NCBI RefSeq assembly: GCF_000821065.1
Contig: NZ_CDGG01000001.1
Coordinates: forward strand, 868,001-932,000
Direction: 5' to 3'
Length of the DNA stretch: 64,000 nucleotides
DNA from: Oceanobacillus oncorhynchi
GTDB taxonomy: Bacteria > Bacillota > Bacilli > Bacillales > Amphibacillaceae
The position numbers were made by a program, and so were the translations under genes. The notes under the pieces are model-generated. The model saw only the letters and a list, made by a program, of their open reading frames with translations, did no database searches and was not told the origin of the DNA. Shown here piece by piece: positions 25,687 through 47,698 of the stretch (position 1 is its first letter; the number at the start of each line of letters is the position of its first letter).

Positions 25687-25713
25687 TAAACAATTTGTCC
25701 CCTTTGCCGATAT
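25687..25713 (+). promoter_or_regulatory. SigD promoter of the main flagellin gene (exact consensus)
   Basis: TAAA (25687-25690), 15 bases, GCCGATAT (25706-25713): a perfect match to the Bacillus SigD consensus. The 138-base leader carries GGA triplets around the ribosome binding site (ATGGAGGTAAGGAATT), a feature compatible with CsrA control of hag, though not proof of it. Confidence 0.88.
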
Positions 25714-25851: not shown

Positions 25852-27260
25852 ATGATTATTAATCACAATATTTCCGCTATTAACGCACACCGTCAGTTGG
25901 GGGTAAACCAAAACGGTGTACAAGGATCTTTAGAAAAACTTTCTTCTGGTCTTCAAATCAACCGTGCAGGGGATGACGCTGCTGGGTTGGCAATTTCTGA
26001 AAAAATGCGTGGGCAAATTCGTGGGTTGGAGCAAGCTTCTACGAATGCGCAAGACGGCATCTCGCTGATACAAACGGCGGAGGGAGCTTTGAATGAAACG
26101 CATGATATTTTGCAACGTATGCGTGAATTGGCTGTTAAATCTTCCAATGATACAAATACAAACGAAGATCGTGTAGAAATTCAAAAAGAGGTAGACCAAT
26201 TAGCTGCAGAAATTTCTCGTATTTCTGAGAATACTCAATTTAACACACAAGATTTACTGACAGGAGATTTTAGAGCAACTTTCCATATAGGTGCAAATGA
26301 AGGACAAAATATCAGCATCTCTGTAAATAATATGTCGGCTGATGCTTTAAAAGTCGGTACAGCTTATGAAGCAACAAGTGATACTGAAATTACTTTAGAT
26401 GATGGTAATGATACTGTTGCAACATGGCAAGAAGCAGTAGTAATTGGTCAAGAAATTAAAGATCCTGATGATGAAACCGAAACAATAACTGCTACAGCAG
26501 AACATGCAAAAGCGGCTGGATATTATACTGAGGACGGAAATTTAGCTCTTGTAGCTGATGAAGCTTTAGCTGAAGATGCTGTAGGTGTCGCTGGTGTTAA
26601 TGTATCTGATCGTGCTTCTGCTGACTCTGCAATTACAGATATCAATAGTGCAATTCAAACAGTTTCTGCAGAACGTTCTAAACTCGGCGCAGTACAAAAC
26701 CGTTTAGAGCATACAATTAATAACTTAGGAGCATCTGCTGAAAACTTGACAGCAGCAGAATCACGTATCCGTGACGTTGATTATGACTTAGCTGCTTAAG
26801 CAGTCTCAGTCACAGTCGTCCTAACTGGTAACGGTTAGTGATTATTATCGGGTGAATTGCTGGAAACCCCTTAGAGCTTGTCTTACTACAACGCAGCTGG
26901 AAACGGCAAACGTGAAGGTTTGAAAAAAGACGAGATTGGGCAATCAGCAGCCGAGCTCCTGGGAGGAAACTCTGGAGAAGGTTCAACGACTAGAATAAAC
27001 CACCTAATGTATAAGCGATGGTGATGAAATTCGTAGGTGAATGATAGAGCCGCTAATTCTATCAGAATCCGAAGTTCCCGACCCTTCCTAGGTAACTGGA
27101 AGGTGAAGATATAGTCTAGTCATTTATGAAAGTAAATGTTCGCACGATGGCGAAAGAAATGATGGAATTCACTAAGAATAACATCCTTTCACAAGCGGCT
27201 CAAAGTATGCTGGCTCAAGCAAACCAGGTGCCTCAAGGCGTGCTTCAATTGCTTCAATAA
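25852..27260 (+). CDS. hag: Flagellin, split by a group I intron (exons 25852-26781 and 27147-27260)
   Basis: Main filament subunit. Exon 1 encodes 310 residues: the N-terminal D0/D1 helices ([36 protein letters not shown]), a short variable centre and the start of the C-terminal D1 helix, ending RIRDVD. Unspliced, translation would go on for only five codons (YDLAA) and stop at 26799, losing the C-terminal D0 helix needed for export and polymerisation. Exon 2 supplies it: MAKEMMEFTKNNILSQ through QVPQGVLQLLQ (37 residues). Joining the exons gives an in-frame 347-residue flagellin with the canonical RDVDMAKEMM junction. The start has AGGTAAGG upstream. Confidence 0.92.
26782..27146 (+). ncRNA. 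Group I self-splicing intron in the flagellin gene (365 nt)
   Basis: Junctions follow group I rules. Exon 1 ends in U (26781), and the P1 helix is visible: TGATTATGACT (26778-26788) pairs with AGTCACAGTCG (26808-26818), giving the U26781-G26815 wobble at the cut site. The intron ends with G at 27146. The core is recognisable: P2 CTAAC/GTTAG, GAATTGCTGGAAACCCC, GCAATCAGCAGCCGAGCTCC (P4-P6) and GGAGAAGGTTCAACGACTAG. The two strands of P7 are GACTA (26988-26992) and TAGTC (27112-27116, within AAGATATAGTCTAGTC). No ORF lies inside. Group I introns in flagellin genes are known from thermophilic bacilli (Geobacillus). Confidence 0.93.
27147..27260 (+). CDS. hag: Flagellin exon 2 (C-terminal D0 helix)
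   Basis: The 37 codons after the intron encode MAKEMMEFTKNNILSQAAQS, then MLAQANQVPQGVLQLLQ and a stop. This is the standard flagellin C-terminus. It has no ribosome binding site of its own, so it should be made only from spliced RNA. Confidence 0.93.
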   Translation: MAKEMMEFTKNNILSQAAQSMLAQANQVPQGVLQLLQ

Positions 27261-27273
27261 AAAAGATTTTTAC

Positions 27274-27307
27274 GAGACTCTAGCTTTTCAGTTAGGGTCT
27301 CTTTTTA
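27274..27307 (+). terminator. Terminator of the flagellin gene
   Basis: GAGACTCTA (27274-27282) pairs with TAGGGTCTC (27293-27301) with one G-U pair, followed by TTTTT. Confidence 0.85.
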
Positions 27308-27337: not shown

Positions 27338-28258
27338 TTAATTAATAAAACAAATCTCAGTCAATTTACTATATGTCAAACCGGTCACGCCATTTAGAAA
27401 ATATAGTTTCATCAGGTTTTCTTTATTTACAATTATTTGATAGCTTTTTGTTTGTATTTCTTTTTTACTCCTAGGAATGAATAAATACTTTTCATAGAAT
27501 TTGCTGTTTTTGTAACAACTAACCCAATAATCTAGTTTATTTAAAACAGCATTAATTTCTTTCGTTGGAGATCTAAGTTGAATGGAAGCGGGTAAATAAA
27601 TAGAAGTTCTTTTCGGTGATAAGTCAAAAATGAAATTATATCTATTGATTAATTTTCTATACATACTTTCATGCATATAGGGCAATACAAGAAAAAGAAA
27701 GTAATAGATTTGAAATTGGTCATACAAAATAATCCGGTTTTGTTTATCAAGATGAAATTGGAGGTGATATTTAGCTTTTAAGAAATGAATTAAACGATCG
27801 TTTTCTAATTCGCTAAAACTTTCGGTTGATAAGATAATTTTTAAAGGTTTATTCCCCTTACATTTTAAGTGACCATCGTCCATATACCACCAAGCCAATG
27901 ATTCTCTATTAAAATATTTTGATATTAAATGAAATGGAATTACTTTTCCTGAATCGGAGTACCATTCAGTCCTTAAATAAGTGATGATATTCGATGTTCT
28001 TGATTGAACATAATGTGAAAGGCTGTAGCCTTTACTTAATCTTGGATCGATAATTTTTTTGAACTTAGGTGGATTTAATGGTAGGAATTCTGATAATTGG
28101 GCGTAGCAATAATTACTCCAGGAATAATCAGTTGAAGTATGCGTGAATTTGAATCTTGGTTTTCTCCGTTCTTGTTTAGTAATGGATCCATCCCCAAGCA
28201 ATTTTCCAATCACTTTTGCTTTAAATGGTAATGTTGTGTCAAACCATGTTTTTTCCAT
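27338..28258 (-). CDS. LAGLIDADG homing endonuclease, free-standing next to the intron-bearing flagellin
   Basis: A 306-residue protein with two LAGLIDADG helices: VIGKLLGDGSI near residues 16-26 and LAWWYMDDGHL near 120-130, each with the catalytic acidic residue (GDG, DDG). The C-terminal region resembles the LAGLIDADG DNA endonuclease family found with organellar and bacterial introns. It lies 77 bases beyond the flagellin stop on the opposite strand, outside the intron. It has its own AAAGGAGTG site before ATG 28258. The gene looks intact. By position it probably cuts an intron-less flagellin allele and so drives transfer of intron and endonuclease together; this is inference. Confidence 0.88.
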   Translation of the reverse strand: MEKTWFDTTLPFKAKVIGKLLGDGSITKQERRKPRFKFTHTSTDYSWSNYCYAQLSEFLPLNPPKFKKIIDPRLSKGYSLSHYVQSRTSNIITYLRTEWYSDSGKVIPFHLISKYFNRESLAWWYMDDGHLKCKGNKPLKIILSTESFSELENDRLIHFLKAKYHLQFHLDKQNRIILYDQFQIYYFLFLVLPYMHESMYRKLINRYNFIFDLSPKRTSIYLPASIQLRSPTKEINAVLNKLDYWVSCYKNSKFYEKYLFIPRSKKEIQTKSYQIIVNKENLMKLYFLNGVTGLTYSKLTEICFIN

Positions 28259-46834: not shown

Positions 46835-46882
46835 ACCTAATAACAAGTAAGATACACCTTAGGAAAGGTGGAGTTATTATCG

Positions 46883-47698
46883 ATGCGTCTCAACAATAAT
46901 GTAATGGCGTTTACGATTTACAATAATATGAACAATCATTTTGCCATGGCTCAGAAATCAATGCTTCGTATCGCAACGGGCAAGCGGATTAACAGTGCTG
47001 CAGATGATCCGGCAGGGCTGGCTATTTCCGAGAAAATGCGTGCGCAGATTCGCGGATTGAATATGGCCATTCGGAATGCGCAGGATGGCATCTCGCTATT
47101 GCAAACGGCGGAGGGTGCGGTGAATGAAACGCATGCGATATTGCAGCGGATGCGGGAGCTGAGTGTGAAGTCAGCGAATGGAACGTATTCGGAATCGGAC
47201 CGGAAAATCATGCAGGATGAGATGAATCAGCTCCGGGAAGGGTTATCGCAGATTGGACGGGATACCGAATTTAATACACAGTCTCTATTAGACGGTTCCT
47301 TTACCAATATACGCCTGCAGATCGGTGCCAATGCGGAGCAATATATTGAAATTTCAATTGGCGATGTAAGGGCAGCTGCGCTGGGTATAGATGAAATCGA
47401 TATTACGACACAAGAAGGCGCAGATACAGCCATCGGGATTTTAGATGAAGCGATAGAGAAGGCATCCTCACAGCGTTCCAGTCTTGGAGCTGTACAGAAC
47501 CGGCTGGAGCATACGATCAATAACCTCTCCAATACAGTAACCAACCTGACACAGGGAGAATCGCGGATTCGGGATGCGGATATTGCAAAAGAGATGATGC
47601 TTTATACCAAGCACAGTCTTTTGGCACAGGTTGCCATGGCAATGCTGGCTCAGGCAAACCAGCAGCCGGGGATGATATTGCAGCTTTTACAGAATTAA
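46883..47698 (+). CDS. Second flagellin, short and intron-less
   Basis: A 271-residue flagellin with intact N-terminal ([38 protein letters not shown]) and C-terminal ([16 protein letters not shown] to MILQLLQN) domains and almost no variable centre. The intron site of the main flagellin corresponds here to RDAD-IAKE, which is uninterrupted. The unusual FTIYNN near the start and Met-rich tail suggest a minor filament protein or a specialised paralogue. I choose ATG 46883 by homology of the N-terminus; AAAGGTGG is 12 bases upstream. An in-frame GTG at 46868 overlaps that site. Confidence 0.9.

Follow-up and report, generated by a model that had tools for sequence, protein, structure and literature searches.

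How does a flagellin gene yield a complete protein when its last codons are cut off from the rest of the reading frame, and what becomes of the product when the interruption stays in the mRNA? This question is raised by a flagellin locus of Oceanobacillus oncorhynchi, which we analysed in a window of 64,000 nucleotides (the whole stretch of DNA under study, to which all positions refer). The flagellin open reading frame (25852-26799) closed with RDVDYDLAA and a stop, and the missing C-terminus, MAKEMMEFTKNNILSQAAQSMLAQANQVPQGVLQLLQ followed by a stop, was found in frame from 27147. The 5' exon (25852..26781, + strand) comprised 310 codons with GTTGAT at its end and matched Flagellin_N (9.5e-46), and the 3' exon (27147..27260, +) comprised 37 codons and a stop. 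The coding gap between GAT (to 26781) and ATG (27147) was 365 nt. Upstream lay a sigma-D promoter with the exact form TAAA-N15-GCCGATAT (25687..25713, +), the sole exact match within the window to the sigma-D consensus. A second flagellin gene, intronless and encoding 276 aa, was observed at 46868-47698 (+), and two tandem matches to the Bacillaceae-1 RNA at 841-908 and 951-1018.

The group I intron and its splice junctions

The sequence-only reading had proposed that the gap is an ORF-less group I intron (26782..27146, +) splitting the flagellin gene, and had named an Infernal search with RF00028 as a check. cmscan placed the match at 26797-27138 (E 1.8e-15), and its 69.2 bits exceeded the gathering score of 50. 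Together with the exon frames, this match indicated that the proposed coordinates were correct to the base and bore out an ORF-less, 365-nt intron beyond which the flagellin C-terminus resumes in frame. No other RF00028 match at E <=0.001 was detected in the genome (one contig, 4.6 Mb). We then compared 42 introns less than 90% alike in an alignment that included the exon ends. The exon side of P1, GAC-GUU-GAU (26773..26781, +), faced the internal guide AGUCGUC (26814..26820, +); the pairing of GAU came from the alignment fold and that of GAC was read by eye. The U-G wobble predicted at the end of the 5' exon proved to be U26781/G26815 and was kept in 42/42 introns. Both P7 strands of that reading, GACTA and TAGTC, were located (26988..26992 and 27112..27116, both +) and were invariant in the 42 aligned relatives, so that P7 gave no covariation information. 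The last intron base was G at 27146, as had been claimed. RNAalifold yielded 98 consensus pairs, 50 of which were changed on both sides in one or more of the 42 introns, and the single intron sequence folded 2.8 sd below its shuffles. A hairpin, UUCGC-ACG/AUG-GCGAA (27139..27154, +; alignment columns 420-433), spanned the 3' splice site; one of its pairs had changes on both sides in 2/42 introns, and its GCG was present in 112/115 intron-bearing genes. No P10 pairing was found by eye. The covariance score, the U-G pair at the 5' site, the terminal G and the covarying core identified the insertion as a group I intron. Full-length flagellin would require its removal from the mRNA, and we infer that it is spliced in vivo. 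It is hardly credible that the insertion stays unspliced in a dead gene and that motility is served by the intronless flagellin at 46868-47698, since the interrupted gene retains its sigma-D promoter and a conserved frame on both sides, the ribozyme core covaries in relatives, and a thermophile flagellin intron is an active ribozyme according to the accessible part of PMC4853749.

That flagellin genes of thermophilic bacilli can contain group I introns had been noted in the sequence-only reading and is indeed on record. The introns of Geobacillus stearothermophilus and thermophilic Bacillus are called IA2 (Hayakawa and Ishizuka 2009, 2012, cited in the accessible parts of PMC3984707 and PMC4853749), and the splicing of flagellin introns in thermophilic bacilli is described as temperature-dependent in the same two sources. 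Compared by intron kind and gene, the present intron is alike, a group I intron in a flagellin gene; it differs in its host, Oceanobacillus, and in its tail and neighbouring endonuclease, which go unmentioned in the accessible text on those introns. The literature matches listed included no report of the tail or the endonuclease, which is weak evidence of absence because subscription papers lay mostly outside the search. Within Bacillales, such introns were present in over 20 named genera, many of which are presumably mesophilic. The intron DNA also matched 4 plasmid records and, at 60-90% identity, 101 phage records, with 38-42% of the intron covered in the eight phage matches listed, suggesting that a phage origin is possible.

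The read-through tail

On unspliced RNA, ribosomes would continue through five codons of the P1 loop before reaching a stop. The intron-encoded tail, Y-D-L-A-A-stop (26782..26799, +), is proposed here as an ssrA-like degron on the basis of its translation and its relatives. The in-frame read-through product of the window, RDVD-YDLAA, would be a flagellin shortened by the final 37 residues, devoid of the C-terminal helix and closing with -LAA; the commonest tail in relatives was YALAA (55 of 113). Two samples together provided these 113 distinct introns at the site (site 1), namely loci fetched via the endonuclease and via intron DNA, and RF00028 matches in 199 genomes of the order (30 loci and 80 stretches among the matches listed). 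It was observed that 108 tails ended in -AA, four in -VA and one in -VS. The final residue was Ala in 112/113, and the single other ending, YALVS, occurred in locus L210. Every one of the 113 introns had an in-frame stop after 5, 6 or 8 codons. As a control, we listed the eight commonest last residues per frame and stop. In the other two frames, Ala lay outside these eight, and a final Ala was thus possible in at most 6 and at most 10 of the 113 introns. Ala was again outside the eight commonest at the second in-frame stop, and at the third and fourth it was found in 6 and 7 introns. The N-terminal flagellin site, described below, gave a final Ala in 0/13 distinct sequences.

The codons were then examined in 96 distinct P1 domains, where the last sense codon was GCT in 39, GCA in 22, GCC in 19, GCG in 15 and TCC in 1. 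Parsimony on a FastTree phylogeny of the intron core counted 1/0/49 changes at positions 1/2/3 of the last codon and 0/4/14 at those of the penultimate codon. The second tail codon, which is paired in P1, gave 7/13/13. The pattern of the last codon indicated that selection acts on the peptide, and the variation of codon 2, though paired, indicated that paired bases are free to change and the Ala codons are not. The tail length switched 13 times on the tree with the ending unchanged. In locus L112 the usual stop was lost and the end lay three codons later, still with -AA.

These data bear on two other explanations of the ending. One is that the early stop is what counts, by keeping ribosomes off the ribozyme core, and that Ala is tolerated rather than selected. 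The stop present in 113/113 introns fits this account, and so does the idea, in the accessible part of PMC3984707, that in-frame stops may aid folding via ribosome stalling. We nevertheless consider it improbable, because Ala is not needed ahead of a stop and the thymidylate synthase and N-terminal flagellin sites use other residues; the two functions, stop and Ala, can also coexist. The other is that -LAA is a mere by-product of the RNA hairpin in the P1 loop, with no function as a peptide. In most sequences the Ala codons sit in the apical P1 hairpin, so that RNA pairing contributes to their conservation; positions 1 and 2 of the last Ala codon were both predicted to be paired in 76/96 P1 domains, and the apical stem shows two-sided changes. 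A pure by-product is highly improbable, however, in view of the 1/0/49 changes in the last codon beside a freely varying, P1-paired codon 2, the return to -AA in L112 after the loss of its stop, and the ending kept through 13 changes of length. Moreover, the last codon encoded Ala in 19/19 P1 domains in which its first base, its second base or both were predicted to be unpaired (both in 12 of these, by eye). The conservation thus indicates, at the sequence level, that selection acts strongly on the Ala-Ala ending as a peptide; a C-terminal AA conserved in this way marks the tail as a putative ssrA-like C-degron.

In B. subtilis, ssrA-tagged and poly-Ala-tailed proteins are recognised by ClpXP (PMC8957991; also PMC8138137), and the accessible part of the review PMC8957991 points out that the ALAA motif resembles poly-Ala. 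The tmRNA tag of the present host was GKENNQPVLAAA, and clpX was present in its genome. ARAGORN found tmRNA tags in 24/30 other hosts, all 24 ending in -AA, and no tag in the other 6/30. In three Anoxybacillus, tag and intron tail both ended in the five residues YALAA. A matching of tag lengths (-AAA tags with -AAA introns, 4/7 vs 1/18, p 0.012) was set aside, as the hosts are related. The likeness of the tail ending to the ssrA tag suggests by analogy that the flagellin made from unspliced mRNA is probably recognised by ClpXP. The useless truncated protein would be handed to ClpXP, and the intron may in this way clear up the products of its own splicing failure. As far as the accessible parts of PMC8957991 and PMC8138137 go, ssrA/tmRNA tags and RqcH alanine tails share this principle, a C-terminal ALAA or poly-Ala marking incomplete proteins for ClpXP; the flagellin ending, in contrast, is encoded in cis by the intron and would be produced only when splicing fails. 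Yeast HAC1 offers a further parallel in that ribosomes on its unspliced mRNA continue into the intron, and the first intron codons form a C-terminal degron. There the setting is eukaryotic and splicing depends on Ire1 (both points from the accessible part of PMC8002603), whereas the flagellin case involves a bacterial ribozyme and an ending that resembles the ssrA tag.

The neighbouring LAGLIDADG gene

A free-standing, I-SceI-like LAGLIDADG gene of 306 aa (HEG hereafter; 27338..28258, - strand) was found convergent with the flagellin gene, 77 nt beyond the flagellin stop (PF03161, 1.2e-28; I-SceI, 4.6e-11). Between the two convergent genes, an inverted repeat with T-runs (27266-27306, by eye) is a likely terminator. 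The profile searches returned LAGLIDADG_2 alone from Pfam and one LAGLIDADG family from PHROGs, and NCBIfam gave no match for HEG. Residues D23 and D128 aligned with D44 and D145 of I-SceI, its catalytic residues; among 58 HEG sequences D128 was invariant and D23 at least 90% conserved. The profile match and the two motifs with their Asp residues identify HEG as a putative LAGLIDADG homing endonuclease. It resembles I-SceI as a LAGLIDADG_2 sequence relative with both catalytic Asp positions and differs from it in being free-standing and in carrying ~100 extra C-terminal residues. This extension past the I-SceI-like part (27341-27640, -) contained conserved YLP and PT. A resemblance of the C-terminus to a ribbon-helix-helix was rejected, as Pfam and PHROGs gave LAGLIDADG only.

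HEG was found in 11/147 genomes, its own included. A full-length intron match was present in 9/11 HEG-bearing genomes versus 15/136 others (Fisher p 8.5e-7, kinship ignored; partial intron matches in G005, G040 and G046 left out of the count). A scan of named genomes gave 79 HEG-related loci, and in the 68 with a flagellin site the two genes were convergent in 68/68. The nearest flagellin site was intron-bearing for 51/53 intact HEGs (ORF at least 270 aa) and 11/15 shorter ones. Intact HEGs lay 58 to ~2,800 nt from this site and were thus not always adjacent to it; those with an empty nearest site were L088, which has a second-site intron, and L109, which adjoins intron-bearing copies. The flagellin site was lacking at 11/79 loci, three of them from remote phyla, and at 5/58 long HEG ORFs (four Bacillales and one weak remote-phylum match). 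Phage and plasmid records gave no match to HEG at E 1e-5. Seen from the intron side, a HEG-like match occurred in the flank of 21/56 loci (14 clear, 6 weak and one 29-residue remnant, L016); these intron-bearing loci were chosen by intron similarity or RF00028, some of them overlap, and the flank was usually ~1.5 kb. Downstream of the intron-bearing flagellin in L024, L030, L031, L134, L154 and L163, a weak LAGLIDADG-like stretch (25-36% identical) was observed. Enzyme decay after fixation of the intron would fit the scarcity of HEG at intron loci. The distances of HEG and intron correlated weakly (r 0.27, partial 0.22, p 0.001; 46 loci).

The endonuclease gene lies outside the ORF-less intron, yet is linked to it. 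The convergence and the intron at the nearest site suggest that the two form a collaborative homing pair, with the intronless flagellin gene as the predicted target. The free-standing enzyme would cut intronless flagellin genes, and break repair would copy the intron in, together with the endonuclease gene through co-conversion. In phage collaborative homing, as given in the accessible part of PMC3984707, an ORF-less intron and a free-standing endonuclease likewise share one site; the present putative pair differs in its bacterial chromosome, its LAGLIDADG enzyme and its convergent position. The alternative that HEG is a bystander or a maturase, and not the mobility enzyme of the intron, is possible but unlikely. 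It draws on the weak co-divergence, on the 35/56 intron-bearing loci with no HEG-like match in the flank examined, and on a LAGLIDADG maturase-like protein described in the accessible part of PMC3984707. It is opposed by the convergence in 68/68 loci, the intron at the nearest site of 51/53 intact genes, the co-occurrence (p 8.5e-7, ignoring kinship) and the retention of both catalytic Asp positions.

The exon sequences around the insertion were considered as a trace of the cut site. In 115 intron-bearing genes, codons -3, -1, +2, +3 and +4 were near-fixed at synonymous sites, unlike in 29 intronless genes; GAC was found in 114/115, GAT in 115/115 and GCG in 112/115. As proof of an endonuclease site this constraint was dropped, because P1 (GAC and GAU with GUCGUC) and the 3' hairpin (UUCGC/GCGAA) also account for it.

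Introns at other sites and the overall reading

In some relatives the last flagellin exon was interrupted by a second intron (e.g. L055 7385-7342, L081). Its 5' part encoded a complete spare flagellin C-terminus and a stop, intact in 58/60 distinct genes and with much synonymous variation; of the two exceptions, one ended in MLAQFEQIAA (-AA again) and one was degenerate (L205). SNQMPQGVLQLLR and ANQQPQGVLQLLR are one example of the two C-termini that such genes encode. The 3' exon could be identified, with its tail intact, in 59/60 second-intron genes; in L214 it was not located. From a reading of a few sequences, the spare C-terminus lies in the P1 loop of the second intron. Spliced and unspliced mRNA of site 2 could therefore both give full-length flagellin. 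Fungal mORFs with duplicated C-termini are similar in that a mobile element carries a spare gene end, but a ribozyme choice between two tails is not described in the accessible part of PMC3630166. A third flagellin site, in the N-terminal region after NAQDG, was occupied in L045, L046, L055, L082 and L111, and RF00028 confirmed introns there in all five scanned loci; L046, L055 and L111 carried three introns within one flagellin gene.

Outside flagellin, the ribonucleotide reductase (RNR) and thymidylate synthase genes were named from a reading of their translated exons. At one RNR site, 19/30 distinct tails had a final Ala. At a second, four tails ended in -VA or -AA, one had an immediate stop (L147 = L220b) and one row stopped after APK. 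Four rows of thymidylate synthase introns stopped after R. In these sequences the Ala-ending rule holds strictly at flagellin site 1 and partially in other introns, and its extension to RNR introns is suggestive. The RNR introns L294 and L295 (G239, G363), of one lineage, had a ~0.9 kb insert in the same place, perhaps an intron-borne endonuclease gene.

Taken as a whole, the explanation that we consider probable joins a removable intron, a selected ssrA-like tail leading to ClpXP, and collaborative homing with a LAGLIDADG enzyme. Flagellin group I introns were already known; the coding tail is new and strongly supported, and the mobility partner is probable. It is also reasonably likely, with somewhat less confidence, that self-splicing introns have evolved ways of handling the translation of unspliced mRNA, an ssrA-mimic degron at site 1 (and partly in RNR) and a spare C-terminus at site 2. 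If true, this would account for the persistence of group I introns in strongly expressed protein genes of bacteria, in which translation and splicing are in competition. The introns would neutralise the faulty product, and 'evolving towards harmlessness' would become a testable idea. The locus would then provide a degron encoded naturally in cis, as well as a chromosomal homing pair based on a LAGLIDADG enzyme.
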